Assembly (NCBI GenBank): GCA_945873815.1
Contig: CAMCEE010000020.1
Span: 1 to 32,469 of the forward strand
Source of the DNA: an uncultured Caryophanales bacterium
GTDB taxonomy: Bacteria; Bacillota_I; Bacilli_A; RFN20; CAG-449
Length of the DNA: 32,469 nucleotides
Reading direction: 5' to 3'
Below are positions 12,566 through 27,974 of this stretch, piece after piece. Made by a program: the position numbers and the translations under genes. The notes beneath the pieces were generated by a model. The model ran no database searches and was not told the DNA's origin. It was given only the letters and a program-made list of their open reading frames with translations. Each line of letters opens with the position of its first letter. The first letter of the stretch is position 1.

Positions 12566-13237
12566 ATGATTATTTATCATGGTTCAAAGGATATTATTGA
12601 AAAACCAGAATTCGGTAAAGGCAATAAGAAGAATGATTACGGATTAGGTTTTTACTGTACTGAAAATGTGGAACTTGCAAAAGAATGGGCTTGTTCTAAC
12701 AACGAAACAAACGGATATGCTAATCAATATGAAATTGATTTAAGTGATTACAAAATTTTAGATTTAAGAGATGAAAAATATTCTATTCTTAATTGGATGG
12801 CACTTTTATTGAAGTTTAGAACGTTTGACGTTAATACCCCTATTTCATCACAAGCAAAAGAATATATATTAGAAAATTTTTACGTTGACGCGGAAGAGTA
12901 TGACGTAATTATAGGCTATCGTGCAGATGATTCTTATTTTAGCTTTGCTAGGGATTTTATTAACAACACTATTTCCGTTGAACAACTTGCTGAAGCTATG
13001 CGTCTTGGTGAATTGGGTATTCAAATTGTATTAAAGTCTAAAAAAGCGTTTAATGCGGTGAAATATATAAGTTACGAATTAGCCGAATGTAAGGAATATT
13101 ACGTAAAACGAGTTAGCCGTGATAAGAAAGCAAGAGAAGCTTATTTAAGCGGTCATAGACAAAAATTGGTGTCGGACGGCTTATTTGTAATGGATATTAT
13201 TAGAAAGGGACTCAAAAATGGCGATAAAATCTTATGA
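12566..13237 (+). CDS. DUF3990 protein, ADP-ribosyltransferase-like (putative toxin)
   Basis: A 223-aa protein opening MIIYHGSKDII, with NDYGLGFYCTENVELAKEWA at about residues 23-42. This is the DUF3990 signature, which as I recall is placed in the ADP-ribosyltransferase superfamily. His5 and the tyrosines in YGLGFY are candidates for the NAD-binding H and Y positions of an H-Y-E-type site. The stop overlaps the next gene by 20 bp, typical of a co-translated pair. The preceding promoter is strong and carries a repeated palindrome. The pairing with a C-terminally XRE-bearing protein suggests a toxin with a DNA-binding antitoxin. The target is unknown and toxicity is not shown by sequence. It is the only gene here whose stop codon is TGA. 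Confidence 0.72.
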   Translation: MIIYHGSKDIIEKPEFGKGNKKNDYGLGFYCTENVELAKEWACSNNETNGYANQYEIDLSDYKILDLRDEKYSILNWMALLLKFRTFDVNTPISSQAKEYILENFYVDAEEYDVIIGYRADDSYFSFARDFINNTISVEQLAEAMRLGELGIQIVLKSKKAFNAVKYISYELAECKEYYVKRVSRDKKAREAYLSGHRQKLVSDGLFVMDIIRKGLKNGDKIL

Positions 13238-13856
13238 CGTTAGATATTTAGATAGCGTTGCTACGAATATCGGTACAATGTTTGAATACGCAGTTGCTTG
13301 TGGCTACGAACCAAAAGTATATTGGAATATGTTTGCCTCTTCCGAAGTGGCGAAACAAATAGAAAAAGGAAATCCAAGATTTTTAGTTGGATATTCTGCA
13401 ATAGATTTGTTAGATCATGTTGTAAATACTACTGCATCAAATGGTAGATTGCTTGCACCAAAACCATTTTTTAGCCGTTCTAGATTTTATTGGGCAGGTT
13501 GGGCGTTAGCACAATATCAAAACTATAAAGCAATATCTTTCTTTAATATAAGCAAAGCATTCCCTATTGAAAAGGTTTTAGCGTTATACGACACTCTTCA
13601 CGAAGCTGATATAACAAAGTTCTTTTCTGTTGCAGACGAATATATTGATGCTCACAAAAAAGAAACAAATCTTAAAAGAATCCGCACCGCGGCAGGATTA
13701 TCCCAAAAACAACTTGCTGAAAAGGCAGAAGTATCAATTCGTAATATACAAATGTACGAACAACGCCATAACGATATAAACAAAGCACAAGCAGATATAC
13801 TATTTAGATTGTCTAAAATACTCGGTTGTAAAATAGAAGATTTATTTGAAGAATAA
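13218..13856 (+). CDS. XRE-family protein with N-terminal partner domain (putative antitoxin)
   Basis: A 212-aa protein. Residues 1-145 form a domain I do not recognise firmly (FEYAVACGYEPKVYWNMF, FFSRSRFYWAGWALAQYQNY). Residues about 153-209 form a Cro/C1-type helix-turn-helix: RIRTAAGLSQKQLAEKAEVS with the recognition-helix region IRNIQMYEQ. An RBS-like AAAGGGA lies inside the end of the DUF3990 gene, and the start is 20 bp before that gene's stop. Antitoxins of this layout bind the toxin with one domain and their own promoter with the other. The palindromic repeat at 12475-12538 is the likely site. The roles are inferred from arrangement. Confidence 0.7.
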   Translation: MAIKSYDVRYLDSVATNIGTMFEYAVACGYEPKVYWNMFASSEVAKQIEKGNPRFLVGYSAIDLLDHVVNTTASNGRLLAPKPFFSRSRFYWAGWALAQYQNYKAISFFNISKAFPIEKVLALYDTLHEADITKFFSVADEYIDAHKKETNLKRIRTAAGLSQKQLAEKAEVSIRNIQMYEQRHNDINKAQADILFRLSKILGCKIEDLFEE

Positions 13857-15121: not shown

Positions 15122-15198
15122 GTTCCCATAGCTCAGCTGGATAGAGCGTGCGCCTCCTAAGCGTAAGGTCGGGTGTTCGAATCACCTTGGGAACGCCA
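15122..15198 (+). tRNA. tRNA-Arg (anticodon CCT), integration site of the downstream island
   Basis: GTTCCCA pairs with TGGGAAC, and CCA is encoded at 15196-15198. The D arm (TAGCTCAGCTGGATAGAGCG), an anticodon loop CTCCTAA with anticodon CCT, and the T-loop segment GTTCGAATC are all canonical. It starts 10 bp after the hydrolase stop. Its 3' 45 bp recur at 24847, so the gene was preserved when the island integrated. Confidence 0.95.
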
Positions 15199-15199
15199 T
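15154..15199 (+). repeat. attL-like direct repeat (3' part of tRNA-Arg)
   Basis: This 46-bp stretch, from the anticodon loop through CCA and one extra T, is repeated at 24847-24892. The only difference is T15169 against G24862. It marks the left boundary of the island. Confidence 0.85.
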
Positions 15200-15208
15200 A
15201 AAGATATT

Positions 15209-15248
15209 AAAACAGCTCCAGGATTAATAGTTATGAAGCTGTTTTTTT
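15209..15248 (+). terminator. Terminator after tRNA-Arg
   Basis: AACAGCT (15211-15217) pairs with AGCTGTT (15237-15243), followed by a T-run. It lies just inside the island, so it was brought in with it. The original tRNA terminator is probably the one at 24905. Confidence 0.8.
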
Positions 15249-15249
15249 G

Positions 15250-15590
15250 TTATTTCTTTATAAATAATTTTTCTCCATATTCATCTAATCCATTTTCAAC
15301 AAATCCTAATGATTTCCAAAAACGAATAGAATCTTCTTTTTTAGAATTAATTTCATAATATGTTAGACCATCTTGCTTTGTAACTTCTTCAAGTTTTTCA
15401 AAGCATAAATGTCATAGATTGTTATTCCTGATTTCTTCAAAAATCCAATAATCCGATATAAAACATTTACCAGCTTCTATTTTATATATTCAATATGATG
15501 CAGCACCTATTTTTTTTCATCTTTCGTAAAATAAATTAAATGATGTTTATCTTTATTCTCCAATAAATCGTTTTCCTTACCTTATACCAT
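15250..15590 (-). pseudogene. Decayed GNAT N-acetyltransferase
   Basis: The minus strand reads a complete small GNAT protein of about 113 codons with several lesions. The C-terminal third is clean (YYEINSKKEDSIRFWKSLGF, then DEYGEKLFIKK and TAA). Upstream, in the same frame, are GKCFISDYWIFEEIR and HLCFEKLEEV, interrupted by two TGA codons. Further upstream, a run of eight A residues shifts the frame to KENDLLENKDKHHLIYFTKD, and a TAA lies two codons after the ATG at 15588-15590. The substrate of the ancestral enzyme is unknown. It lies at the left edge of the island. Confidence 0.75.
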
Positions 15591-15593
15591 TTC

Positions 15594-15645
15594 TATTAAT
15601 TGCACGTTTTTGCAATATAAAATAGGTTATTAATTGCACGTTTTT
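15594..15645. repeat. Two 18-bp direct repeats near the left end of the island
   Basis: TATTAATTGCACGTTTTT occurs at 15594-15611 and again at 15628-15645, a 34-bp period. There are only two copies, so it is not a CRISPR. The distance from the att repeat (about 400 bp) would suit recombinase arm-type binding sites, or they may be remnants of an IS end. The rest of 15646-15893 has no gene. It contains AATGCAACAATTT near 15710, which matches the inner part of the IS30 inverted repeat and may be an older IS30 scar. Confidence 0.5.
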
Positions 15646-15974
15646 CAACTTTACAGATTAAGAAAAATTCCCAAATTACTTTTTTCAACAATAAAAATGC
15701 AACAATTTTAACTGCTTTTTGGACTATTCAACGAAAAGTAGACACAACATTTCAATTTGTCATCCCTTGTTTTTGATAATAAGCATCCTTATATTGTGTA
15801 CTGAACCAAATAAAAAAAACTATTGATTCCAATTCTGGCTATAATGCCACTCATCACATAGGTCTTATTTGATATATTTAATTTAAATGATTAATCGAAT
15901 GTAAATATCATAATGGAATTGTCGGAAATCATCGGTTGAAAATGTTGGTTTCTAACGATTCCTTTTCTTTTTGC

Positions 15975-15993
15975 TATAATCTCGTCATGGAGG
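15975..15993 (+). promoter_or_regulatory. istA -10 box and Shine-Dalgarno site
   Basis: TATAAT at 15975-15980 and GGAGG at 15989-15993 precede the ATG at 16003. They support 16003 rather than 16156 as the ancestral istA start. No convincing -35 is seen. Confidence 0.6.
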
Positions 15994-16002
15994 TAATAAC
16001 AA

Positions 16003-16155
16003 ATGAGAAAAGATATTTATGAAAGGATAAGAGTATTAAAGATGGATGAAATAAAACCAAACTTTGCTGAACTTGCTAAGGCGTGAGGATGTGATTATAG
16101 AACTGCTAAAAAGTATTTTTATCAAGATGAAAGTAAACCGCCAATAAGAAAACAA
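16003..16155 (+). pseudogene. istA: 5' part of istA, severed by an in-frame TGA
   Basis: From ATG 16003, behind GGAGG, the frame reads MRKDIYERIRVLKMDEIKPN FAELAKA, then TGA at 16084-16086 as codon 28. It continues in the same frame with GCDYRTAKKYFYQDESKPP directly into the open frame starting at 16156. This is the N-terminal helix-turn-helix of IstA. Either the stop inactivates the transposase, or a rare readthrough keeps it alive. Confidence 0.75.
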
Positions 16156-17211
16156 ATGCCTTCTAAATTGGATCCTTATAAAGAGATAATTAATGAAAAG
16201 CTTAAACTATGCTGTTCCTATAATTCAATCTATAAATTTATTTGTAAGAAAGGATATCAAGGGAAATATACAATTCTTAGAGATTATTGTTCACTATATA
16301 AATTAGACGAAACTAAAAAGGCTACCATTAGATTTGAAACAAATCCTGGTTTACAAGCTCAAGTCGATTGGAAAGAAACAATGACTTTACATTATAGAAA
16401 TGGTGATTCAATAACGTTCAATATATTTCTAATTGTACTTGGATATTCCAGATTAAAATATATCGAATTAACTTTAGACAGGTCACAAGATACAGTTTTT
16501 AAAAGTATGATTCATGCTTTCCAGTATTTCGATGGTATTCCAAAAGAAATAATATTTGATAATATGAAAACTGTTGTTGACCATTCTAAAAGTAATTATT
16601 CAGAAGCTGTAATTAATGAATCTTTCTATCAATTCTCTAAAGACTTTGGCTTTGAAGTTTGGACTTGTCGTCCATTTAGGCCTCAAACTAAAGGGAAGGT
16701 TGAAGCTCTTGCTAGAACTATGGAAAGGCTAAGGCCATATGATTATGAATTTGATTCTTTTGAAGAATTAGAACTAATTATTGCTGAATTGAATTCTGAT
16801 TTAAATAATGAAATATCTCAAGCAACTAAAATGGTTCCATTTAAGCTATTTGAAAAAGAAAAAGAATATCTTCGAAATCTTCCTAACGACGATATATTTC
16901 GCTCCTATATTGACGTTAAAGACATTACTAGAATTGTCTCTAAAGAGGCTCTTGTAACTTACGATAATCGAAAATATTCCGTAGATCCCCAGTATATTGG
17001 AAAAACAGTCTCTATCAGTGTTTCCAATGATACCTTGTGCATTTATTGTAACAAATCTTTGATTAAAACGCACAAGATTACTCAAAAACGTATTAATTAT
17101 TCAAAAGATGATTATATTAATATCCTAAAATCAGAAGCTATGAAATCCGCTTCTAGTGAGGATATTGAGAAAATCGCTAATATCAATCTTTCTATTTATG
17201 ACAATTTATAA
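16156..17211 (+). CDS. istA: IS21-family transposase IstA, remaining open frame (DDE catalytic domain)
   Basis: Open frame of 351 codons holding the IstA integrase core. DDE candidates are AQVDWKE (Asp), IIFDNMKTVV (Asp) and GKVEALARTM (Glu). PFRPQTKGKVEALA is the family's typical last block. A C-terminal beta domain follows. The family protein is usually about 400 aa or more. The missing N-terminal DNA-binding part is encoded just upstream, in the same frame, beyond a TGA at 16084-16086. The ATG at 16156 has no Shine-Dalgarno site and is only the first ATG after that stop. I regard the gene as disrupted. istB follows 11 bp later. Confidence 0.85.
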   Translation: MPSKLDPYKEIINEKLKLCCSYNSIYKFICKKGYQGKYTILRDYCSLYKLDETKKATIRFETNPGLQAQVDWKETMTLHYRNGDSITFNIFLIVLGYSRLKYIELTLDRSQDTVFKSMIHAFQYFDGIPKEIIFDNMKTVVDHSKSNYSEAVINESFYQFSKDFGFEVWTCRPFRPQTKGKVEALARTMERLRPYDYEFDSFEELELIIAELNSDLNNEISQATKMVPFKLFEKEKEYLRNLPNDDIFRSYIDVKDITRIVSKEALVTYDNRKYSVDPQYIGKTVSISVSNDTLCIYCNKSLIKTHKITQKRINYSKDDYINILKSEAMKSASSEDIEKIANINLSIYDNL

Positions 17212-17222
17212 AGGAGTTAATC

Positions 17223-18002
17223 ATGTCAAATTATATTCAACTATCTAATAATTTAGATCAATTAAAACTTACTAAAATTAAAGAATATTTACCTACTTAT
17301 CTAGATGATGCAATTTCTAAAAACTTATCATTTGTTGATATTCTTTTAGAACTTACTAATCAAGAAATTGATTTTAGAGAAAAACGAGCTGCTGAAATTA
17401 ATTTAGCTATTTCTAATTTTCCTTTTATTAGAAGAATATCTGATTTTGACTTTTCTTATCAGCCTTCTATTTCGAAAAATCAAATATTAGATTTAGCTTC
17501 TCTTAGATTCATTGAGTCTTTCGAAAATATTTTATTCATTGGCTCTTCTGGTGTTGGTAAAACTCATCTTGCTACCGCTATTGGTGTTGAAGCATCCGCT
17601 AATCACATATCAACTTATTTTATTCATTTTCAAATTCTAATTGCTAAAATTAAGAAAGCTGTCGCAGAAAATAAGGTTGAACATTTTGTTAAATCTTATG
17701 CTAAATATAAATTACTTATTATTGATGAACTTGGTTATCTTCCTGTAGATAAAATCTATGCTTCCGTTTTCTTTCAATTAGTCGCTGCTAGATATGAAAA
17801 GAAATCAACTATTATTACTACTAACCAACCATTATCTAAATGGGGTGAAGTCCTTGGTGATCCCGTTCTTGCTAATGCTATTATCGATAGATTAATTCAT
17901 CATTCGACAATAGTTAAAATTACAGGTAAGTCCTATCGTATCAAAGATAAGCTTATTGATATTGATCAACAAACAAAAAATTCCGAGCCGCTTAACCCTT
18001 AA
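17223..18002 (+). CDS. istB: IS21-family helper ATPase IstB
   Basis: A 259-aa AAA+ ATPase of the DnaC/IstB group that loads at the target and activates IstA. Walker A GSSGVGKTH (107-115) and Walker B LLIIDELGYLP are intact. STIITTNQPLSKW is the sensor-1 region and AIIDRLIHHSTIVKITGKSYR is the usual C-terminal block. AAGGAG lies before the ATG and the gene starts 11 bp after istA. The length is normal. It looks intact while its partner istA carries a stop codon. Confidence 0.93.
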   Translation: MSNYIQLSNNLDQLKLTKIKEYLPTYLDDAISKNLSFVDILLELTNQEIDFREKRAAEINLAISNFPFIRRISDFDFSYQPSISKNQILDLASLRFIESFENILFIGSSGVGKTHLATAIGVEASANHISTYFIHFQILIAKIKKAVAENKVEHFVKSYAKYKLLIIDELGYLPVDKIYASVFFQLVAARYEKKSTIITTNQPLSKWGEVLGDPVLANAIIDRLIHHSTIVKITGKSYRIKDKLIDIDQQTKNSEPLNP

Positions 18003-18180
18003 GGGTTATACCATTATTGTTTATTAAACGATAATTACCTACATTTTTAACCGATAAAAAACTACACAAAATTATTGACAATTACAATCGAATTCAATTT
18101 TAAACGTATCTATCAAAGGGATTAAATCAATTATCTAAACATGTTGTATCCTTAAGACGTTATTATTTCAGCGCGCATAT

Positions 18181-18242
18181 TTACAAAGAAATCAAGGGGA
18201 TTATATGATTATAAGTCCCCTATTTGAGTTATTTCTTTGTAA
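18181..18242. repeat. Long, nearly perfect inverted repeat (62 bp)
   Basis: The outer arms TTACAAAGAAAT (18181-18192) and ATTTCTTTGTAA (18231-18242) are perfect. The inner arms GGGGA-TTATA (18196-18205) and TATAA-g-TCCCC (18210-18220) pair around a TGAT loop. It lies just beyond the stop codon of the last R-M operon gene, so it may end that transcript, but no T-run follows outside the stem on either strand. It could also be a cruciform-type recognition structure of the island. Confidence 0.6.
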
Positions 18243-18249
18243 TAAAAAT

Positions 18250-18615
18250 TTATAATGCATTATAACCAGCAATAAAATCAGCGTGATATTGACTAGGAAC
18301 AGTACTGATAATAGTAGCATAATTATTTAAAGCACCATTTATAGCAAAATGATGTGTTCTAACCAATACTCCAACATAGTCATTGCAATTTATTCTAGCA
18401 TATACCGAACCTTTTCCAGCGGTAAAAGTGAAATTTTGTGGAAATCTTGCTGGTGGTACTAAGCAATGAATTCTTCCTTCACTTCCCCAGGCTCCTTGAT
18501 CTTCGTTATGTTCCCAATAAACTTCAGCGTGATTATTATTGGCTAGGTATCCTAAAGCATAAAAATATTCGTTGTCATTTGCAAAATAAACTTGATTGTT
18601 TTTTCCAAAATTCAT
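18250..18615 (-). CDS. 121-aa protein of unknown function, last gene of the R-M operon
   Basis: I do not recognise a function. The protein is soluble and rich in aromatics and Asn: FYALGYLANNNHAEVYWEHN, then QGAWGSEGRIHCLVPP, ARINCNDYVGVLVR and a C-terminal DFIAGYNAL. There is no signal peptide, membrane segment or known nuclease motif. AAGGAGAG lies about 9 nt before the ATG. It sits 110 bp downstream of the XRE gene on the same strand and ends next to a long hairpin. Its dense runs of His, Trp, Glu and Asp suggest a real folded domain. Being in the R-M operon, it may be an accessory or anti-restriction protein, or unrelated island cargo. Confidence 0.6.
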   Translation of the reverse strand: MNFGKNNQVYFANDNEYFYALGYLANNNHAEVYWEHNEDQGAWGSEGRIHCLVPPARFPQNFTFTAGKGSVYARINCNDYVGVLVRTHHFAINGALNNYATIISTVPSQYHADFIAGYNAL

Positions 18616-18725
18616 ATGTTAAATCTCTCCTTTCCCTTAAATATAACATTAAATATCCCAAAGACAGATATAATGTTTCTTTAGCAAAACAAATTAGTTC
18701 AATTTTTGTGTTTTTTCTTAATATA

Positions 18726-18935
18726 TTAATATTCAAAATCAAAGAAATCTTTTAATGATACTCCTATACCATCACATATTTGTTTTAAGGTGTTAATAGT
18801 TAAATTATACTTTCCAGATTCGATTTTTGATATTAATGTTCTATCAAAAGCTATTTTTCTAGCTAATTTCTCTTGGCTAAGCCCAGCCTGTTTTCTTAAA
18901 AATTTTATTCTTAATCCTATATCTATATTTTTCAT
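18726..18935 (-). CDS. XRE-family controller-like regulator of the R-M operon
   Basis: A 69-aa protein consisting only of a Cro/C1 helix-turn-helix: RIKFLRKQAGLSQEKLARKI followed by DRTLISKIESGKYN and a C-terminal LKDFFDFEY. The size and layout match controller (C) proteins of type II R-M systems. It starts 1 bp after the endonuclease stop codon, so it is translationally coupled to it, unlike classical C genes, which lie upstream of R. The inverted repeats at 22891-22908 (leader of the methyltransferase gene) and 20174-20196 (leader of the endonuclease gene) are candidate binding sites. Confidence 0.75.
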   Translation of the reverse strand: MKNIDIGLRIKFLRKQAGLSQEKLARKIAFDRTLISKIESGKYNLTINTLKQICDGIGVSLKDFFDFEY

Positions 18936-18936
18936 G

Positions 18937-20151
18937 TTAATTATTAAAATCGATATTTACATAGTTTACGACTTGATCAAAATCTAAATAAGGAACATCT
19001 AAATATTTATCATTTTCTAAGCCTGTTTTCAAAACAAAACACATCTTATGAAATTCGTATAATCCGTTATGCATCTCATATGATTTTTTGATTGTACCAA
19101 TTTTGGATAATATGCAAATATATTGAAAGTCTTTTGAAATAATCTGAGTATTACCATTAACATGTGCATAGTTATAATGTTGAGTTGGAGTCAATGCAAT
19201 TAAATTTTCAAAATAGTCTGAAATTTCAGGATATGATTCACGAGTAAAGATATGATGAATATGAGTGGCATTTTCATCGTGACTATATTGTTCAACCTCC
19301 GATTTACCAAAATTATAGTCATTATTATAAAATTTTACCATCTTAATAGCTTTAGCAACAGCATAAGCATTGTATGGATTTTGTGGACGATTAACCACAT
19401 GTTCACTTCTTGTTATTTCTTTTGGCTTAGAGCTATACATATCTCTAAAATTTTCTCTGTTATACATTAACATATCAAAACCTATTAAATTCTTTGATAA
19501 CAATCCTTTTTCTGTGCCTTTCTTATTCCTAGTAAAAGCCATAGGATTAATAACCTTAGTAAAAATTCTTCTTGGCTCAGTAGGTTTTGTAATAGGTGTA
19601 TTTTCAATAGTGAATTGGACAAAAGAATTCTTCATTTTGCTAAAAGTATCTTTGTTTGTATTTTCGAAAAAATCCTCAAACACTTTAAATAATCCCGAAT
19701 CTCTTAGAACTTTTTCACAATATATATTCAAAAATGTTAAACTATTAATTTCTCTAAGTGCTAAGAAAGTTAATATATCTTTATTAAATACTTTATAATA
19801 ATTATATCTTCCTCGTTTGTTCTTAGTTAGTATTCCTGAATAAGCAAACAATTCTAAAGGTTGTGAGAAAAACTTGTCATACTCATTACCAGCTTTGCCG
19901 TTCATAACGCTTGGTTTTTTAAACATTGATGAAATGTGCAAATCTGTATATGGATTATTCCATATATCACGTGATGTAAATTCAACGTCATTCTCTTTAT
20001 CATACACATATTCAAGAACACAGTCAGCTATAATTGTTAAAACATCCGGAGTACATTTTTGATCAATCCAACGAGCATTACCACTCAATCTTATATCATA
20101 GTTGTGACTCATAATAAAATTTTTAACTTCATTTTGATCTATAAAACGCAT
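18937..20151 (-). CDS. HNH-type type II restriction endonuclease
   Basis: A 404-aa protein lying between a DNA methyltransferase and a controller gene. It has an HNH-like site near residues 290-330: THIHHIFTRE, then ENLIALTPTQHYNYAH, giving the H-H...N...H pattern of HNH nucleases. The N-terminal half (ARWIDQKCTPDVLTIIADCV, FTSRDIWNNPYTDLHISSMF) is probably the DNA-recognition part. AGGAGAAG lies before the ATG. The fused m5C+m6A methyltransferase partner suggests an asymmetric site, as in the Eco31I/Alw26I/Esp3I type IIS group, where Eco31I is an HNH enzyme; direct homology to those is not established here. The recognition sequence is unknown. Confidence 0.75.
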   Translation of the reverse strand: MRFIDQNEVKNFIMSHNYDIRLSGNARWIDQKCTPDVLTIIADCVLEYVYDKENDVEFTSRDIWNNPYTDLHISSMFKKPSVMNGKAGNEYDKFFSQPLELFAYSGILTKNKRGRYNYYKVFNKDILTFLALREINSLTFLNIYCEKVLRDSGLFKVFEDFFENTNKDTFSKMKNSFVQFTIENTPITKPTEPRRIFTKVINPMAFTRNKKGTEKGLLSKNLIGFDMLMYNRENFRDMYSSKPKEITRSEHVVNRPQNPYNAYAVAKAIKMVKFYNNDYNFGKSEVEQYSHDENATHIHHIFTRESYPEISDYFENLIALTPTQHYNYAHVNGNTQIISKDFQYICILSKIGTIKKSYEMHNGLYEFHKMCFVLKTGLENDKYLDVPYLDFDQVVNYVNIDFNN

Positions 20152-20173
20152 AATAATTCTTCTCCTATTAATC

Positions 20174-20196
20174 TACATAATTGTATTAGTTATGTA
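20174..20196 (-). promoter_or_regulatory. Inverted repeat upstream of the endonuclease gene
   Basis: TACATAA (20174-20180), a 9-nt spacer and TTATGTA (20190-20196) form a perfect 7-bp inverted repeat, 23 bp before the endonuclease start codon. The spacer reads TACAAT-like on the minus strand. This is a candidate operator for delayed endonuclease expression. Confidence 0.5.
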
Positions 20197-20283
20197 ACGA
20201 AAAATTTCTTATTAATTTTAGCATATTTTTCTCAAAGTTAGTATAAAAATCCTATTTAATCGTACTTTTATCCGATTTTTTTT

Positions 20284-20321
20284 TAAAAAAGACCCAAAAT
20301 TATTTCAATTCGAGTCTTTAA
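20284..20321 (-). terminator. Terminator of the methyltransferase gene
   Basis: On the minus strand AAAGACTC pairs with GGGTCTTT (one G-T wobble), and a T-run follows. It lies between the methyltransferase and endonuclease genes, so the endonuclease probably has its own promoter. Confidence 0.65.
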
Positions 20322-20356
20322 ACAATATCTATCATTTATTAATAATTAAAATCTTC

Positions 20357-22867
20357 TTATTGTGATTGTCTTATTCCAAAAAAATAAACAGAATTAGAAT
20401 CTATGTTTAGTGATCTTGTTTGATAATTTCTGGCAATTTGCATAAAGTTTCTATATTCATCACTTGAAAAAAATAATAAATCATCTTTAGAAATTTTCAT
20501 ATCTTTACTTGGAATCAATATAGCAACAGAACCATTTACAATATATCCTTTTTCTTTCTTCATAACTCGAGTTTTATAGGTCATATTTGGTGTCAAGAAA
20601 ACATCATCTCTATCAATAAATTTTGACACTTCCAATCCAGCTAAATCATCTTTTTCTAGATATCCATCATATCCTGATATATCCAAAATTTTAGAACCAT
20701 CATCGCTTATATTTCTTGATTTTAATACTCTCACTTTTGTACATTTTTTTTCTTCATTAAGTAAAGAGCTTGTGATTTGTCTATCTCTAAAGACAGAGAA
20801 CACATTAAAAGTCATATTTGAAAAGAATTTATCAAAGGCTTCATTACGATAAATTATCCAATATGGTAATTTTGAGTCAAAAATATACTTTTGAGGTTGC
20901 TCAATCTTTAAATCTTTTGTTATTGAATAAACACAAGTTTTCGAAGGTTTGAAGCTTGTATTAACATTTAGACATATAGTTTCAACAAGTACTCCTTTAA
21001 ATCCATTTTCACCAAAATCAAGAATAGAAGACACATTATAATTGCCTAAAAAATCACGCGTATCTTTATATTCTGGAGTATTTAAAATATTCTTAGGCAT
21101 AATCATTGATACATTATTTGATATGTTACAAGATTTTTCCAAAAAATACGAAGCCAAATTTGTTGAATTATAATTGCAATAATATGTTCTATTACCTAAA
21201 GCAATATCTCGTTTCGAAATCTTAGTAAATGGAGGATTACCAACCACCAAATCATATATTTTATTTGGTACAAAAGTTAGAAAATCTGAAACAATATAAT
21301 TAATTTTTACCCTATCGCTTTCAAAATGCTTAAGCATTATTTTAACTGTTTCAATTGAAGTATAATCAATATCAACCAAATCCAAGTTTATTTTTTTATC
21401 ACAATACTTATTTATAATTGAGGGGATAAAATTACCAGCACCAACACTTGGCTCCAATATATTAATCTCTTCTTTGTCGAAATCAGGTAAGTAATCATAT
21501 ATTTTATCTATAAGCATTTTGTCTGTATAATATGCAGATTGTTCATTTCTTTGAGCGTTAGAGTACTCAACTATCTTACATAAAGATGAAAAATTAATAT
21601 TATCGATATTTTCATTAACAAAACCAACTATATTCCCATTCTCATCTAATTTGTTGTCAGAAATAATCTTTACAATTTCTTTTAAAGAAAGATTTTGCTT
21701 TTTCAAAAACAATTTAATTTTATGAGCTATTTGATTGAAAATATTAGTAGGAACGGCTTCGCCAATTGATTGTCTAATATTAATTTCTTCTTTCTTCATA
21801 AATTTAACTTTAGCATCGTGCGACATCTTATTTAATTCATTAAAGTCAATATCAGTCCATTTAAACTCACAAGGAATGGACATAAGTATCATTAATTCGC
21901 GTATACTAAAAACTCTATCATCATGTGGATGAATAGTGCTTTGGCTTGCAAGCTGATCGTTTCTTGTATGGATACATGGACCAACTTTGTCCCAATATTG
22001 TCTTGTATATTTGTCACCATTCTTCTTGACGTTTTCTACTATTTCGCCATTAATTATTTGGTGTGGACGATTCTCAATTTTTTCATTATCAAAAGCAGAT
22101 TGTCCCTCTTTTAAACAAGAAATCCAACTTCTCATTTTTTCATCATAGCCTCTAAAAAAATGATAAATGTCATTAGGATCAAACTCATAAGGTTCATTCA
22201 ACGGAAGCATACCACCTATGACTTGTCTAAGTGTTTTTTCTTCTACATAATCAGGAAAAAAGTCATATGGAGAGCAAAAAGCTGATATATCGTTTCTAAC
22301 ACCAATAACTAACGTTCTTGTTCTACTAGAATTTGAACCATAATTTTTAAAATTCAGTACTTTTGCAACATAACTATAATGATTTCCTAGATTAACTTTT
22401 ATAGCTTCACCAATAGTCTTATCAATCTTATCATTATCTGTACAAATAGTTTTTATGAATGCTGGCACATTTTCAAACACAAAAAACTTTGGAAGAATTC
22501 TTTTTATAATATTAATTGATTCTATAACAAGCGAATTTCTTATAATTTCATCCTCAGTTTTCTTATGATTGGCAACAGACATACCTTGACAAGGGGGAGT
22601 AGCTATAACTACATCTACATCATTCATTTTTTCTCTAAGTTTCCAGTAATTGATTTCATCATATAGTTTGGTCTTGATTTCGTTTTTTGTAATATCTCCA
22701 CAAATATAACCAGAATCATATTTACATTTATTATTAATTCTCTGTATATTTAATCTTCTTTCTATCAATTCTAATGTTGCAATGCAATCAAAATCATTCA
22801 TTTTAAAACCAAAACATCCAACACCAGCACTACTAAATAAAGATATATATGTATTTTTCAATGGCAT
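20357..22867 (-). CDS. Fused DNA methyltransferase: N-terminal C5-cytosine MTase plus C-terminal N6-adenine MTase
   Basis: One 836-aa protein with two complete SAM-dependent MTases. The N-terminal half is a Dcm-like m5C enzyme: motif I FSSAGVGCFGF (11-21), motif IV PPCQG (catalytic Cys93), motif VI FENV (131-134), motif VIII SRTRTLVIGVR (181-191) and motif X QSIGEAVP (366-373). The C-terminal half is a gamma-type m6A enzyme: QSAYYTD (443-449), motif I LEPSVGAGNF (471-480), motif IV NPPF (544-547), then some 280 residues that could hold its target-recognition region. Neither half lacks a catalytic motif. Two different base modifications in one chain fit protection of the two strands of an asymmetric site. 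A good promoter and an inverted repeat lie upstream. Confidence 0.9.
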   Translation of the reverse strand: MPLKNTYISLFSSAGVGCFGFKMNDFDCIATLELIERRLNIQRINNKCKYDSGYICGDITKNEIKTKLYDEINYWKLREKMNDVDVVIATPPCQGMSVANHKKTEDEIIRNSLVIESINIIKRILPKFFVFENVPAFIKTICTDNDKIDKTIGEAIKVNLGNHYSYVAKVLNFKNYGSNSSRTRTLVIGVRNDISAFCSPYDFFPDYVEEKTLRQVIGGMLPLNEPYEFDPNDIYHFFRGYDEKMRSWISCLKEGQSAFDNEKIENRPHQIINGEIVENVKKNGDKYTRQYWDKVGPCIHTRNDQLASQSTIHPHDDRVFSIRELMILMSIPCEFKWTDIDFNELNKMSHDAKVKFMKKEEINIRQSIGEAVPTNIFNQIAHKIKLFLKKQNLSLKEIVKIISDNKLDENGNIVGFVNENIDNINFSSLCKIVEYSNAQRNEQSAYYTDKMLIDKIYDYLPDFDKEEINILEPSVGAGNFIPSIINKYCDKKINLDLVDIDYTSIETVKIMLKHFESDRVKINYIVSDFLTFVPNKIYDLVVGNPPFTKISKRDIALGNRTYYCNYNSTNLASYFLEKSCNISNNVSMIMPKNILNTPEYKDTRDFLGNYNVSSILDFGENGFKGVLVETICLNVNTSFKPSKTCVYSITKDLKIEQPQKYIFDSKLPYWIIYRNEAFDKFFSNMTFNVFSVFRDRQITSSLLNEEKKCTKVRVLKSRNISDDGSKILDISGYDGYLEKDDLAGLEVSKFIDRDDVFLTPNMTYKTRVMKKEKGYIVNGSVAILIPSKDMKISKDDLLFFSSDEYRNFMQIARNYQTRSLNIDSNSVYFFGIRQSQ

Positions 22868-22890
22868 AAAAAATCACTCCTAAATAAAAA

Positions 22891-22908
22891 TGTGCACTAT
22901 ATTGCACA
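22891..22908 (-). promoter_or_regulatory. Putative operator in the methyltransferase leader
   Basis: TGTGCA (22891-22896), a 6-nt spacer and TGCACA (22903-22908) form a perfect inverted repeat between the -10 box and the start codon. This position would let a bound XRE regulator repress the methyltransferase once enough protein has accumulated. Confidence 0.6.
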
Positions 22909-22925
22909 CCTTCATATGCATTTTT

Positions 22926-22954
22926 ATTATACCCCTTTTTCCATGTTTAAACAA
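22926..22954 (-). promoter_or_regulatory. Sigma-A-type promoter of the methyltransferase gene
   Basis: On the minus strand, TTGTTT (22954-22949), a 17-bp spacer and TATAAT (22931-22926). It lies 20 bp inside the island from the IS30 flanking repeat. Confidence 0.75.
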
Positions 22955-23099
22955 CCAGTTAATTAAAAATTATTAAAGATTATTCTTATTGTTGAAAAAC
23001 TAAATGCAACAATTTAATCCGAACTTTAACTTTTACTTTTTCTAAAGCTGAATAGATAATTATATTGAGCTTAGTTTATCTATAATGGAGGTAAAATAT

Positions 23100-24365
23100 A
23101 TGAAGAACGGTCAACTAAGTTATCAAGATAGAGTGAAATTACAATCATATTTAGAAGATGAGATTCCTGTAAAAGTTATATGTAAAAAAATAGATGTTGC
23201 TAAACAATCTATTTATCGTGAAATTAAAATAAATGATATCTTAAAGGCAAGGAAAACTAATGTTTTAAGAATCAACTGCGTTAACCTAGGTAATTGTCCT
23301 TATCTACCAAAAGGCTGTAATAGATGCACTAAAAAATGTAATCACTTCATAGAAAGACAATGTAAAAAAGTTACTCGTTTCCCTTTTATTTGTAATAAAT
23401 GTGAAAATAAATCTAGTTGCATATTAACTCATCGTTATTATTACGCTGATGAAGCGCAGAAGAAAACTGAAAGTCTTCGTAGTACTTCTCGTTCTGGTAT
23501 ACGTATTAACAAAGAAGAATTCAAAGCTATTGATGAATTAATTTCACCTCTTCTTCAAGAAAAAGGACAATCATTAAATCACATCTTAACTAGTCATCCT
23601 GAGATTAAAGTAAATGAAAGAACAATTCGGAATTGGATTAATGATGGATATACCACAGCTGGAAATCTCGACTTACCAAGAAAAGTTACATTTAAACCTA
23701 AAAAGGAGTATATTCACCGCATTGTTAAACCATCAAACGTGTTTAATTGGCGAACTTTTCATGATTTTCGTATATTTTGCAAGGAGAATCCCGATAAACT
23801 AATATCTCAATATGATACTGTTATTGGAAAAATTGGTGATATGCAACGCTTATTAACGATTCATTTTCCTGCTTTACATTTCCAGTTTGGATTTCTCATT
23901 ACAAACGCTACTTCAGAAGAAGTAAATAAAGTTCTTTTAGATTTACGCAAAAAAATTGGAATAGAATTATGGAAAAAAATCTTTCCAATTATGCTTTGTG
24001 ATAATGGTATAGAATTTAATGAACTCTATCGTCTAGAATTTGATGAAAAAGAAAATAAACTATCGAATGTATTTTATTGTGATCCTTATTGTTCTTCTCA
24101 AAAAGGAGCTTGTGAACGAAATCACGAACTAATAAGATATATTGAACCAAAGCATCACTCATTGAATCACTTAACGCAAGAAAAAGTCAATTTAATGTTT
24201 TCACACATTAATTCATACTATCGACCAGGATTGAATGGTGTTACACCATATGATCTTGCAGAAATGGTTCTAGGAAAAGAATTCTTAGACATTATTGAAA
24301 TAAAAAAGATTGAGCCTCAGAATGTAAACCTGACTCAATCATTAACTAAAAAAATCAAAAAATAA
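23100..24365 (+). CDS. IS30-family transposase
   Basis: A 421-aa transposase. The N-terminal helix-turn-helix QLSYQDRVKLQSYLEDEIPV then SIYREIK binds the ends. A Cys-rich insertion follows (CPYLPKGCNRCTKKCNHF, CNKCENKSSC, about residues 58-105), a likely zinc site found in this branch of the family. The DDE catalytic core has QYDTVIGKIGD (first Asp), MLCDNGIEF (second Asp) and CSSQKGACERNHELIRYIEP (Glu), the IS30 hallmark block. I place the start at 23100, 8 nt after GGAGG. The upstream ATG at 23085 overlaps that Shine-Dalgarno site. The reading frame is intact and the inverted repeats are perfect, so it may be active. Confidence 0.92.
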   Translation: MKNGQLSYQDRVKLQSYLEDEIPVKVICKKIDVAKQSIYREIKINDILKARKTNVLRINCVNLGNCPYLPKGCNRCTKKCNHFIERQCKKVTRFPFICNKCENKSSCILTHRYYYADEAQKKTESLRSTSRSGIRINKEEFKAIDELISPLLQEKGQSLNHILTSHPEIKVNERTIRNWINDGYTTAGNLDLPRKVTFKPKKEYIHRIVKPSNVFNWRTFHDFRIFCKENPDKLISQYDTVIGKIGDMQRLLTIHFPALHFQFGFLITNATSEEVNKVLLDLRKKIGIELWKKIFPIMLCDNGIEFNELYRLEFDEKENKLSNVFYCDPYCSSQKGACERNHELIRYIEPKHHSLNHLTQEKVNLMFSHINSYYRPGLNGVTPYDLAEMVLGKEFLDIIEIKKIEPQNVNLTQSLTKKIKK

Positions 24366-24421
24366 CAGCCAATTATTTTTTGGTCAAACTAAGCTCAAAA
24401 AATATTGATAAATACCAACTG

Positions 24422-24440
24422 TTGTTGCATTTAGTTTTTC
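24422..24440. repeat. Internal third copy of the IS30 inverted repeat
   Basis: TTGTTGCATTTAGTTTTTC is identical to the core of the two outer ends and has the same orientation as the right end. It lies 174 bp inside that end. The segment between them holds a terminator but no gene. It may be an older right end, left by tandem or nested insertion. Confidence 0.75.
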
Positions 24441-24556
24441 CAAATACTAAATTCAACAAATTTTTGACGTGCTTAGTTTTATGAAGAATTCTCTCCTTCA
24501 CATGAAAATAATACCATAAATAAAATATTCAAGGAAGAGTTAAATCGTTGTTACAT

Positions 24557-24575
24557 GGGCTTTATGCCCTTTTTT
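24557..24575 (+). terminator. Short rho-independent terminator inside the IS30 right end
   Basis: GGGC (24557-24560), loop TTTAT and GCCC (24566-24569), then a run of six T. It stops transcription leaving the transposase gene. Confidence 0.7.
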
Positions 24576-24695
24576 ACTATCTCTATTTCTTATTATGACA
24601 CTCGAGCGTTAATATTGTTGCATTTAGTTTTTCAACTAACAAAGATTATTCTTATTAGTTTTGTTCTATTTTTTTACTTATAAAACATCCTTGGA

Positions 24696-24740
24696 CACCA
24701 TAGACACCATAAAAATGGGCACCATATAGGCACTCATAAC
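24696..24740. repeat. Tandem GACACCATA-type repeats near the right end of the island
   Basis: GACACCATA occurs at 24696-24704 and 24705-24713, with the variant GGCACCATA at 24720-24728 and GGCACTCATA at 24731-24740. These short repeats lie about 110 bp inside the right att copy, as recombinase arm-type sites do. The surrounding 24657-24834 has no gene. Confidence 0.5.
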
Positions 24741-24846
24741 TTGTTAGATATAAAAGTTATGTAAGATATACAAGCTATTTAAGCAAAATATACAAAATAT
24801 TAACGATTATATAAATAATACAAGATAATTAAGGGGAGTTTCATAA

Positions 24847-24892
24847 CTCCTAAGCGTAAGGGCGGGTGTTCGAATCACCTTGGGAACGCCAT
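24847..24892 (+). repeat. attR-like partial copy of tRNA-Arg 3' end
   Basis: A 46-bp copy of 15154-15199 with one change (T to G in the variable-loop region). The 5' half of the tRNA is absent, so this is not a functional tRNA. It is preceded by GGAGTT-tcat-AACTCC (24835-24850), an inverted repeat overlapping its left edge that may be a recombinase core site. Confidence 0.88.
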
Positions 24893-24904
24893 CTAATATA
24901 TATA

Positions 24905-24946
24905 AGAGGATGATTAGAAAACAAAAGATTTTTCATCCTCTTTTTT
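24905..24946 (+). terminator. Terminator, probably the original one of tRNA-Arg
   Basis: AGAGGATGA (24905-24913) pairs perfectly with TCATCCTCT (24933-24941), followed by a T-run. It lies just right of the att copy, where the tRNA gene would end if the island were excised. Confidence 0.85.
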
Positions 24947-25002
24947 ATTTTTTAACGATATTTATTTTTAAAAATTGTTAAAAAGATAGAATAAACTAAA
25001 AC

Positions 25003-25029
25003 ACTCCAATCAATTGACTGGAGTATTTT
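25003..25029. terminator. Bidirectional terminator after the flavodiiron gene
   Basis: ACTCCA (25003-25008) pairs with TGGAGT (25019-25024), with TCAA/TTGA inside. T-rich sequence flanks both sides. It ends the leftward operon. Confidence 0.75.
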
Positions 25030-25042
25030 TATATTGTTTCGC

Positions 25043-26191
25043 TTATATTAATTCTTCTGCAAGATTTTCTAATTCTAAGACATTTTTTTCATTCATACTT
25101 GAAAGAATTGTCACTGAATTCTCTAAATACTTAATATTCTTTGCACCTTCAAACATCTTCATCATAACTTTTTTTGCTTGAGGAGCCCAAGAACCATTTT
25201 CGATAAATCCAACTACTCTATTTTGATAATTCCTTTCCAATAGATGGTTAATGAATTCTTTCATAAATGGGAAAACATCACCATTATACGTAGAAGAAGC
25301 AAGAACTAATCTATCATATCTAAATGCATCTTCAACCGCTTCTGCCATATCTTCTCTAGCTAAATCACATAAGACAACTTTTTCAACTTTTCCTTCAAGT
25401 TTTTCTTTTAGTAGTTCACATGCTTTCTTCGTATTTCCATAGATTGAAGAATAAGCAATCATTACTCCCTTTGATTCTGGTTGATAACTAGACCAAGTAT
25501 TATATAAATTCAAATAGTAACTAAGGTTATCATTCAATATTGGTCCATGTAAAGGACAGATCGTATTAATTTCAAATTGAGATAGTTTTTTTAATACGTT
25601 TTGTACTTGCATTCCATATTTTCCTACAATACCAAAATAGTATCTTCTTGCTTCACAAGCCCATTCTTCCTCTACATCCAATGCACCGAATTTTCCAAAT
25701 GCATCTGCGCTAAAGAGGACCTTATCGCTTTCATCATAACTCATAACAACTTCTGGCCAGTGAACCATTGGAGCAGGAACAAATCTTAAAGTATGTTTAC
25801 CTAGACTTAATGTATCACCCTCTTTAACCACAATTCTTTGATTTTCAAATCCTGTTTTAAAGAATTGTTTCATTATATTAAATGCTTGAATAGTTGACAC
25901 AATTGTAATATTAGGATATCTTTTAACAAATTCTAAAATGTTTGAAGAATGATCCGGTTCCATATGAGATACTATCAAATACTTTATCTCATTATCTCCA
26001 ACGATTTCTTCAATATTTCTTAACCACTCATCTTTAAAATGAGCATCAACAGTATCAAGTACTGCAATATTATCATCTAAAATAAGGTATGAATTGTAAC
26101 ACATACCATTTGGAACATCATATTGCCCCTCAAACAAGTCAACTTGATGGTCGTTAACACCTACATACTTTATATCTTTTGTGATTGTCAT
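25043..26191 (-). CDS. fprA: FprA-family A-type flavodiiron protein
   Basis: A cytoplasmic flavodiiron protein that reduces O2 to water and/or NO to N2O in anaerobes. The N-terminal metallo-beta-lactamase-like domain carries the diiron ligands HMEPDH (His76, Glu78, Asp80, His81), VHWP (His144), SADAFG (Asp163) and LHGP (His215). The C-terminal flavodoxin domain has the FMN loop AYSSIYGNTKKA and STYNGDVFPF. The start at 26191 follows AAAAGGGG; an in-frame ATG at 26218 would add nine residues without a Shine-Dalgarno site. At 382 aa it is near normal length. It is the last gene of a four-gene leftward run. No fused rubredoxin is present, so the electron donor is encoded elsewhere. Confidence 0.93.
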   Translation of the reverse strand: MTITKDIKYVGVNDHQVDLFEGQYDVPNGMCYNSYLILDDNIAVLDTVDAHFKDEWLRNIEEIVGDNEIKYLIVSHMEPDHSSNILEFVKRYPNITIVSTIQAFNIMKQFFKTGFENQRIVVKEGDTLSLGKHTLRFVPAPMVHWPEVVMSYDESDKVLFSADAFGKFGALDVEEEWACEARRYYFGIVGKYGMQVQNVLKKLSQFEINTICPLHGPILNDNLSYYLNLYNTWSSYQPESKGVMIAYSSIYGNTKKACELLKEKLEGKVEKVVLCDLAREDMAEAVEDAFRYDRLVLASSTYNGDVFPFMKEFINHLLERNYQNRVVGFIENGSWAPQAKKVMMKMFEGAKNIKYLENSVTILSSMNEKNVLELENLAEELI

Positions 26192-26227
26192 AGTTATTTT
26201 CCCCTTTTTTAAATACACTAATGAAAT

Positions 26228-27019
26228 TTATTTTCTTAAGACAACAATATATTTATGATTTAAGTTTGCATAAAAGATTTTTGGATATCCTTGAAGTAAT
26301 AATCCCCTTTGATCATTGTGATCATAGATAATTACATCTTGATATAAATATCCTGCTTTAATTCCCTTTTTTGCAATGTCTGCATGAAATTCTACATATG
26401 GTTTATTATTCTTTATATCACGATAATCTTCAACAATAAATACTGCATATCCACCTTTTTTAGTTATTCGATATAATCTTCTCATCAAATCTTCAATATT
26501 CTTAAGATATTCTTCATATTTATCATCGCCAAAGTCTAATGAATTCTCATCTTTCTTTTTTCTTTTGGAAATCGATGGTTTACTTGGAGAAGTAATGATT
26601 AATTGAATCGTTTCATCCTCAATTCTTTCGGTTGCAAGAAAAGCATCCATATTCATCAATTCATAATCTCCATTTACTAAAAGATTGATTGAATTCTCTA
26701 CATTAAATTTTGCAATATCAAATACTTTCTTATGAATTTCAGATCCATAACAAAATCGATTATTCCTTATTGCTGAGATGATAGTAGTTCCTGCGCCCAT
26801 AAAAGGATCAAAAACAACATCACCTTCTTTAGAGTACATACTTATTAATCTATCTAATAATTCTAATGGTAATACATCCATATTAGGAATCTTGCTGTAT
26901 TCTTTTGGAGAAGGCAAATCTTTCCAAACACTACGAGAATGGTGAGCCCATTCAGTTGCAGTCATTCCATTAAATGTCAAATCTCTTTGTTCTTTATTCT
27001 TTTCTTCTTTTTTTGTCAT
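26228..27019 (-). CDS. DNA-methylase-fold methyltransferase with atypical motif IV
   Basis: A 263-aa SAM-dependent methyltransferase of the N4/N6 DNA-methylase type. Motif I is VVFDPFMGAGTT (68-79), preceded by PLELLDRLISMYS as in DNA methylases. The expected catalytic TSPPY/DPPY is TSPSKP (143-148), followed by a basic stretch KRKKKDE. The proline pair and aromatic residue are lost. Motif order is I then IV. The start is 2 bp after the stop of the GTPase gene upstream, so it is co-translated with metal-type GTPases, an odd place for a restriction-linked enzyme. It may act on RNA or a small target, or be an orphan DNA MTase. No restriction gene is adjacent. Confidence 0.7.
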   Translation of the reverse strand: MTKKEEKNKEQRDLTFNGMTATEWAHHSRSVWKDLPSPKEYSKIPNMDVLPLELLDRLISMYSKEGDVVFDPFMGAGTTIISAIRNNRFCYGSEIHKKVFDIAKFNVENSINLLVNGDYELMNMDAFLATERIEDETIQLIITSPSKPSISKRKKKDENSLDFGDDKYEEYLKNIEDLMRRLYRITKKGGYAVFIVEDYRDIKNNKPYVEFHADIAKKGIKAGYLYQDVIIYDHNDQRGLLLQGYPKIFYANLNHKYIVVLRK

Positions 27020-27021
27020 AA

Positions 27022-27963
27022 TTAATTACCTGTAAGATTGAGTATATCATCTTTTGGCCCTTGAATCGTTTCAATTGATATTGGATATAACATCAATTCT
27101 TCTTCATTATATTCATCAGACCATTCATATGCTACTTTAGCTTTTAAATGAATCCATTGTCTATCGACTAAATCTTTTCCCAAATTATCCTTAACTAAGA
27201 ATCCATATAATTGCATATCATTTGCGCAGCAATTCATAATAAATCTTCCTGCAATAAAAGTATTAGGTGGAAGCTTATCACTTAATATTACTTGAATATC
27301 ATATTCAACTGTCTTGCCATCGTATCTATTCTTATTATCAAATGTATCGATGTAAAATGTTCCAAAATCATCGCGTTCAATCTTAATAACCGGTGCTTCA
27401 ATATCATAAGGAAGCGGTTCTTCAAATGCATCAGAAGCAGTCATATTCTTATCCATGCATAAATATTGACATCTATTATTAATAAGTTTTAAAGCAGCAC
27501 GATATGGTTCAATTTGATCTTGACTAGATAATTTTGTAAAGCAAACTAAATGTGCTCTTTTAATGATATCGACAAATTTTTGTCTCATATTATTAAAATA
27601 TACACCAAATGTTTGAGCATCGATAAATTCAACTACTTGAACTATTTCAATTGAACGAGGAAATTGTAATTCTTCTAAATTCCACATTCCATTCATTTCC
27701 ATAACAATGCGATCAGGCTTTTCTTCTTTAACTAATTTATCAATTAATTTATAATCAAATTCTTCGATAGAATTAAAATACTTAATTGTCGTGTTTGCTT
27801 CTTCTAAAAACTTAGGATCGTATTCAACCTCCCCTTCTTCACAAACTAGAAGGAGAGTTTTTTGCATATTATCACCTAAATCAGATTTTAATGTATCGAT
27901 AATAAAACTTGTTTTACCTGAATCTAGAAATCCACTAATAAAAAATACTGGTACTTTTTTCAT
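27022..27963 (-). CDS. CobW/COG0523-type GTPase fused to a YcgQ (DUF1980)-like C-terminal domain
   Basis: A 313-aa protein. The N-terminal P-loop is GFLDSGKTSF (11-20). The position where CobW proteins have NEFGE reads CEEGEVE (41-47), and the CxCC metal motif is missing. FTKLSSQDQ stands near the usual NK(x)D-type base-recognition site. The C-terminal third contains FIAGRFIMNCCANDMQLYGF (Cys245-Cys246) and WIHLKAKVAYE, resembling the C-terminal metal-site region of YcgQ/DUF1980 proteins. In other bacteria YcgQ partners a YcgR permease and is often near COG0523 GTPases; here the two parts appear to be one chain. AGAGG precedes the ATG, 11 bp after the upstream GTPase stop. A role in metal delivery is inferred. 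Confidence 0.75.
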   Translation of the reverse strand: MKKVPVFFISGFLDSGKTSFIIDTLKSDLGDNMQKTLLLVCEEGEVEYDPKFLEEANTTIKYFNSIEEFDYKLIDKLVKEEKPDRIVMEMNGMWNLEELQFPRSIEIVQVVEFIDAQTFGVYFNNMRQKFVDIIKRAHLVCFTKLSSQDQIEPYRAALKLINNRCQYLCMDKNMTASDAFEEPLPYDIEAPVIKIERDDFGTFYIDTFDNKNRYDGKTVEYDIQVILSDKLPPNTFIAGRFIMNCCANDMQLYGFLVKDNLGKDLVDRQWIHLKAKVAYEWSDEYNEEELMLYPISIETIQGPKDDILNLTGN

Positions 27964-27974
27964 CTTATTTACCT

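Follow-up and report, generated by a model that had tools for sequence, protein, structure and literature searches.

We describe a genomic island that carries a restriction-modification (R-M) operon at the 3' end of a tRNA-Arg(CCT) gene in an uncultured Caryophanales bacterium (GenBank assembly GCA_945873815.1), within a stretch of 32,469 nucleotides that was analyzed as a whole and is called the window below (contig CAMCEE010000020.1, positions 1 to 32,469). We consider it an even call that this island is a non-autonomous integrative element, resembling cis-mobilizable elements (CIMEs), whose integrase came from another element, either in trans or within a composite, and is not encoded in the genome at present. 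It is the ends rather than the genes that appear to be common to a small group of units in these gut Bacilli that lack their own integrase gene, a proposition that we hold with middling confidence. The ends of the island comprise the following features:

15122 to 15198, plus strand: intact tRNA-Arg(CCT) gene (ARAGORN), the target gene, whose 3' half is the left attachment (att) copy
15154 to 15199, plus strand: left 46-bp copy (attL-like), running from CTCCTAA in the anticodon loop to CCAT
15200 to 15247, plus strand: intrinsic terminator at the left end of the island
24694 to 24846, plus strand: right arm, three GRCACCATA repeats followed by an AT-rich stretch common to other genomes
24847 to 24892, plus strand: right 46-bp copy (attR-like), the 3' half of tRNA-Arg(CCT) with one mismatch
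24893 to 24960, plus strand: terminator beyond the right copy, presumably the original tRNA terminator

The two 46-bp copies are direct repeats of the tRNA 3' end, identical at 45 of 46 positions and 9,693 bp apart from start to start, which bears out the bracketing of the R-M genes described in a first-pass annotation of this DNA. ARAGORN finds a single tRNA in the window, the tRNA-Arg(CCT). The right copy lacks the 5' half, its sequence beginning only at the anticodon loop; being half a tRNA, it is not the product of a tandem tRNA duplication, an origin raised in that annotation. The letters GGGAACGCCAT of the left copy end at 15199 and the right flank begins with CTAATATATA at 24893; the core expected beside the arm repeats (GRCACCATA or TTACAT) of a matching integrase would read CTCCTAAGCG. 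Short repeats had been claimed for the ends in general; we report them for the right one, where GRCACCATA occurs three times between 24694 and 24726 and nowhere else in the window. Both attL and attR are retained, as in a CIME, in the form of the 46-bp halves, and the right end recurs in other genomes.

A whole-genome search with PF00589, reading through stops in the window's own assembly (96.5% complete), returned two matches, neither in the window. One exceeds the XerC cut-off; the other fits XerD best, just below the cut-off of that model (323.8 vs 329.6), and both assignments are supported by neighboring genes whose names we presume from their sequences. XerC and XerD are the only tyrosine recombinases found anywhere in the genome, and the claim that the island encodes no recombinase stands: no hidden homologue of a tyrosine integrase was seen in the island by PF00589 with stops read through, serine recombinases not having been searched genome-wide, and the scanned open reading frames (ORFs) of the island contain no recombinases except transposases of insertion sequences (IS). 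Island ORFs of at least 80 aa are those of the R-M operon and the IS, a 121-aa ORF and two overlapping frames on the opposite strand (18438-18755, 19370-19798); none encodes a conjugation or mobilization protein, an origin of transfer not having been sought. Between the ends, nothing was recognized as the remnant of an integrase, relaxase or phage gene. No integrase was found beside a matching end in a survey of 30 recombinase loci from 11 relatives, these loci carrying neither end.

The right end was traced by searching 279 genomes of the order with the 184-bp right end of genome G045; the genomes compared, here and below, are drafts throughout, one per species, with mis-binned contigs possible, and include the window's own (G000). 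Six of the 279 matched. Arm and half occur together in four (G000, G005, G007 and G045), and the other two matches are the tRNA alone (G003) and a piece of the arm (G001). Outside the half, the window arm is identical at 48/64 positions in G045, 44/54 in G005 and 58/78 in G007, each alignment score being compared with 500 shuffles. The exact 23-mer across the arm/half junction was present in three contigs of the genome_contigs set, all from metagenome-assembled genomes of one "SUG" series (Erysipelotrichaceae SUG531, Bacilli SUG353 and Bacillales SUG1176, counterparts of G007:C120, G045:C54 and G005:C29, in this order), and a 23-base right-end pattern matched 0 stretches in viral_contigs. G005, G007 and G045 each keep an intact tRNA-Arg(CCT) elsewhere. 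Their att halves agree with the 3' 46 nt of this host tRNA at 35, 30 and 32 of 46 positions, respectively, but with the window tRNA at 43, 44 and 45, and are therefore not displaced pieces of their own tRNA. The neighboring genes vary: in G005 a DUF4143/AAA ATPase gene adjoins the arm, followed by a fragment of a Type I specificity subunit, in G045 the arm is bordered by what we take to be an IS200-like end, and the G007 contig holds just 298 bp of the unit. Beyond the half, the G005 flank resembles the stretch after its own tRNA-Glu(CTC) (84% over 57 bp) and G007 shows a terminator-like stretch by eye; these units may lie behind other tRNA genes, or a neighbor may have moved along with them. 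A decayed left half in G005:C29, which had seemed likely by eye, was dropped (score 28 vs a shuffle mean of 24 and maximum of 37).

A unit with a left end as well was found in G001, where a 25-bp overlap links contigs C63 and C76 and a single DUF4143 alignment spans the join. It measures 1,554 bp, lies outside any tRNA gene and holds one frameshifted DUF4143 gene. The sequence there runs in the order ABC permease end, tRNA-Arg-like 3' half from CTCC, terminator, DUF4143 gene, G005-type arm, CTCC, seven T and a glutathione-peroxidase-like gene, the labels of both flanking genes being presumed from sequence. The terminator is 92% identical over 49 bp to window positions 15199-15247, and the arm is tied to that of G005, G007 and G045 (86% over 44 bp). 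Joining the flanks yields GGAGAGAGCAATCTCTCCTTTTTTT, a perfect intrinsic terminator with the hairpin GGAGAGAGCAATCTCTCC followed by TTTTTTT. Among the 3,728 CTCC sites of the G001 and G005 stretches examined, 17 precede seven T and 2 complete a hairpin of this kind. This restored terminator is the best evidence that units of this kind insert by crossover at the anticodon-loop sequence. No pair of the ABC and glutathione-peroxidase-like genes free of the unit was present in the stretches sampled from G003 and G005. At the tRNA-Arg(CCT) gene of G001 itself, a relic of the window's CACCAT arm lies ~270 bp downstream (67/91 identical), beside an IS21 end.

These ends suggest a mechanism in which a circular form would be joined to the tRNA gene by a tyrosine recombinase that recognizes the anticodon-loop core (CTCCT), so that each end comes to hold a 3' tRNA half; on the left the element's half would complete the tRNA, and the half on the right would be the host's. 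Recombinase, circle and helper are all postulated here, and a second element would have supplied the enzyme, whether in trans or as part of a composite. The halves in the window fit a crossover in the anticodon loop; those of G005, G007 and G045 do not fit cleanly. It is a conjecture that we rather doubt, and offer for that reason tentatively, that such "tRNA-half cassettes" form a living family without enzymes of their own, each holding one defense gene or operon that has a terminator-bearing tRNA 3' half on one side and, on the other, an arm carrying the second half; the same doubt attaches to their movement by a tyrosine integrase in trans, with the anticodon loop as crossover and transcription terminators as secondary sites of entry.

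The surroundings of the tRNA gene differ between genomes. In G001, G002, G003 and G005, a block of methyltransferase (MTase) and CobW genes is situated 5' of tRNA-Arg(CCT), and in G007 the block shares a contig with it. In the window (15122-29249) the block is instead found 3' of the tRNA, past the island and inverted, from which we infer that tRNA and island were at some time inverted as one piece. Genes downstream of tRNA-Arg(CCT) also differ among relatives. In G013, a member of another genus, an R-M operon of the type seen in the island, with a methyltransferase 56% identical, lies ~7.3 kb downstream of tRNA-Arg(CCT) (locus L052 on contig C16), together with two DUF4143-type ATPase genes and GmrSD; no right-hand half was found at this R-M locus. 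Because of this variation and these defense genes, the downstream side of tRNA-Arg(CCT) is, as far as gene content tells, a hot spot.

Three further features were seen in this neighborhood. DUF3990 and helix-turn-helix (HTH) genes at 12566-13856 of the window, ~1.3 kb upstream of the tRNA, match the candidate defense pair PDC-M42A/B (PADLOC). In G002, a DUF3990 gene whose product is HTH-like at the N terminus directly follows tRNA-Arg(CCT). A CobW-like protein encoded at 28226-28606 of the window contains a long tandem repeat rich in His, Cys and Glu that varies among relatives.

Between its ends, the island holds the R-M operon and signs of decay:

15258 to 15560, minus strand: decayed reading frame, translated with stops
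15900 to 18086, plus strand: IS21-family element, istA with an in-frame TGA, istB intact, flanked by the duplication ATCGAA (15894-15899/18087-18092)
18250 to 18615, minus strand: 121-aa ORF, counted with the R-M operon
18726 to 18935, minus strand: HTH (Xre-type) protein of 69 aa, possible controller of the R-M operon
18937 to 20151, minus strand: HNH restriction endonuclease of 404 aa, HpyAV type (HH-15-N-8-H)
20357 to 22867, minus strand: methyltransferase of 836 aa, fusion of C5-cytosine and N6-adenine domains
about 22991 to 24640, plus strand: IS30-family element with a 16-bp duplication (22975-22990/24641-24656)

The decayed frame is presumably acetyltransferase-like. Removal of the IS21 and IS30-type insertions leaves 5,834 bp, in agreement with the earlier estimate of about 5.8 kb consisting essentially of the R-M operon. 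The duplication of the IS30-type element reads AAAGATTATTCTTATT; long duplications of 16-26 bp are on record for the IS30-type element IS1630 (PMC3317919). Extra copies of the IS30-type terminal repeat occur in the island at 15681-15712 and 24422-24440, with solo ends elsewhere in the genome too. The in-frame TGA of istA (16084-16086) may render the IS21 copy inactive or may be read otherwise.

Judging from its protein sequences, the R-M system belongs to the known HpyAV/Hin4II type. PF00145 and PF07669 both match the single 836-aa methyltransferase (M), which contains the motifs PPCQ, ENV and NPPF. The 404-aa endonuclease (R) is a Type II restriction enzyme by PADLOC (E 1.2e-126) and has no Pfam match; its residues 299-325, HHIFTRESYPEISDYFENLIALTPTQH, show the HpyAV catalytic spacing, and the HH-15-N-8-H pattern was present in 6/6 R proteins tested. 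M precedes R in the same direction, and both genes are intact with all motifs sought, whereas a neighboring frame and an IS gene are broken. HpyAV has catalytic residues H294, H295, N311 and H320, a C5/N6A fusion methyltransferase and the recognition sequence CCTTC (PMC2816704). Like the Type IIS systems HpyAV and Hin4II (CCTTC), the island encodes an HNH nuclease of the same catalytic spacing, preceded in the same direction by a fused C5 and N6A methyltransferase; unlike them, it adds an HTH gene and a 121-aa ORF downstream. Its CCTTC specificity is predicted by analogy, and the operon, as an HpyAV-type Type IIS system, would be expected to cut unmethylated incoming DNA. MnlI was considered first as the nearest R-M system, and the HpyAV description fits better. 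Among 58 genomes of relatives, M is full-length in three (G000, G013 with 56% and G020 with 44% identity) and matched at all in 14, and the system is therefore patchy; the HNH pattern is absent from three neighboring proteins of G020.

The 121-aa ORF had no match among Pfam, NCBIfam, PHROGs or PADLOC models. We count it with the R-M operon because homologues adjoin endonuclease genes in two other such systems, standing directly downstream in a gut record (L166, 39% identical) and on a Psychrobacter plasmid (L169, 45%), and it is possibly a third component of HpyAV-type R-M. The homologues carry the motif QGAWGSE/GAWGNE, the two carrier records being unrelated. Two records with 56% M homologues, MT839041.1 and MT835591.1 (L166, L167), were rejected as phages or circles and look like pieces of bacterial chromosome: neither has terminal repeats, L166 is without tRNA and L167 has tRNA-Arg(CCG) only. 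Seven stretches of viral contigs matched the pattern for relatives of M, and 0 were confirmed to encode one. At 14771-18124 of L167, deposited as phage and apparently bacterial, an HpyAV-type R-M system adjoins an ATPase, which we take to resemble the Wadjet protein JetC.

Several observations weigh against an integrative element served by a foreign integrase. Excision and transfer remain predicted, neither having been seen. If crossover took place in the anticodon loop, the right halves in G005, G007 and G045 should be the host's, and their mismatch leaves three sites unexplained. Arm similarity is modest (74-81%), the scores beating the best of 500 shuffles by just 1 to 5 points, and the arm of the G001 unit (C63) does not exceed shuffles against the window arm (score 25, null maximum 33). 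In that unit, the 17 bases before CTCC differ from those of other units, though equal in number, and the right junction, that is, the proposed crossover, falls within a 12-bp inverted repeat (TTGTGTGAAGTC / GACTTTCACACAA), which is a poor fit. The assemblies are drafts in which small contigs may be mis-binned, a possibility raised for G045, since it belongs to another family and shares 98% over 183 bp with G007. Finally, the last 40 residues of a tyrosine recombinase lie at the far edge of the G005 contig, which tells against stating flatly that there is no integrase nearby. We take it to be an inversion enzyme of a specificity-subunit locus, because it adjoins the specificity-subunit fragment and a similar pairing occurs on G005:C1, where a recombinase gene stands beside a gene read by eye as a specificity subunit.

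Decay by deletions and IS insertions is the textbook route to a CIME, and it is quite possible, if short of probable, that an integrative and conjugative element (ICE), an integrative and mobilizable element (IME) or a prophage with its own integrase at tRNA-Arg(CCT) was reduced in place to R-M genes and ends. Decay is visible in the acetyltransferase-like remnant, the two IS insertions, the istA stop and the arm relic at the G001 tRNA, and cargo-bearing CIMEs, 1.2-13 kb in size, are common according to PMC7563491. Set against this are the missing remnants of integrase, relaxase or phage genes between the ends and the other units with such ends, one of them as small as 1,554 bp, none of which shows an integrase taken as its own. 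The first-pass annotation had left open a minimal hitch-hiker or a decayed element; hitch-hiking gains from the ends shared with relatives, and mobilization in trans may fit slightly better than decay because these ends are common to units with other cargo. The rearranged locus, with the MTase-CobW block 5' of the tRNA in G001, G002, G003 and G005 and 3' and inverted in the window, would also suit a non-integrative origin, with a rearrangement at the tRNA producing the 46-bp copy and homologous recombination bringing in the operon; we regard this as very improbable, given that three other genomes hold the right end in the same register relative to the half and a fourth has the left end. The R-M operon may in addition hold the island in place by post-segregational killing, which is compatible with either an element mobilized in trans or one decayed in place. 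The integrity of both R-M genes beside a broken frame and a broken IS gene agrees with it, but intact genes are expected too under defense selection alone or after a young insertion, and we think such addiction unlikely.

Defense genes cluster at tRNA genes, and the arrival there of islands without mobility genes is usually unexplained. Units with shared ends and different cargo make this arrival testable, as a helper integrase should be traceable by its arm sites, and they pose the question of whether one defense operon can travel on ends alone. Among literature titles searched, none dealt with integrase-less R-M islands of this lineage. The island is most like a CIME in structure, whether or not it descends from an ICE or IME. 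CIMEs are described, in PMC5704250 and PMC7563491, as 1.2-13 kb elements with att sites and cargo that lack recombination and transfer genes; like those at tRNA-Lys and rpsI in Streptococcus, as far as these sources describe them, the island has attL/attR flanks, a size within the range, cargo and no recombination, mobilization or transfer genes. Unlike them, it was not seen in tandem with a functional element, and a unit with related ends also lies away from a tRNA. The tmRNA-site islands I23, I44 and I55, which according to PMC12595487 carry intY and defense genes with R-M among the cargo, likewise reside at an RNA gene between direct repeats without transfer genes; they encode a tyrosine integrase of their own that is needed for excision, in contrast to the tRNA-Arg(CCT) island. 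Miniature inverted-repeat transposable elements (MITEs) and clusters of attC sites lacking integron-integrases (CALINs) are enzyme-less hitchers, as reviewed in PMC11389934, and similarly depend on end sequences read by an enzyme in trans, whereas the ends of the island are tRNA halves, a tyrosine-integrase type of site. If the conjecture of tRNA-half cassettes were true, these would stand to integrases as MITEs do to transposases.

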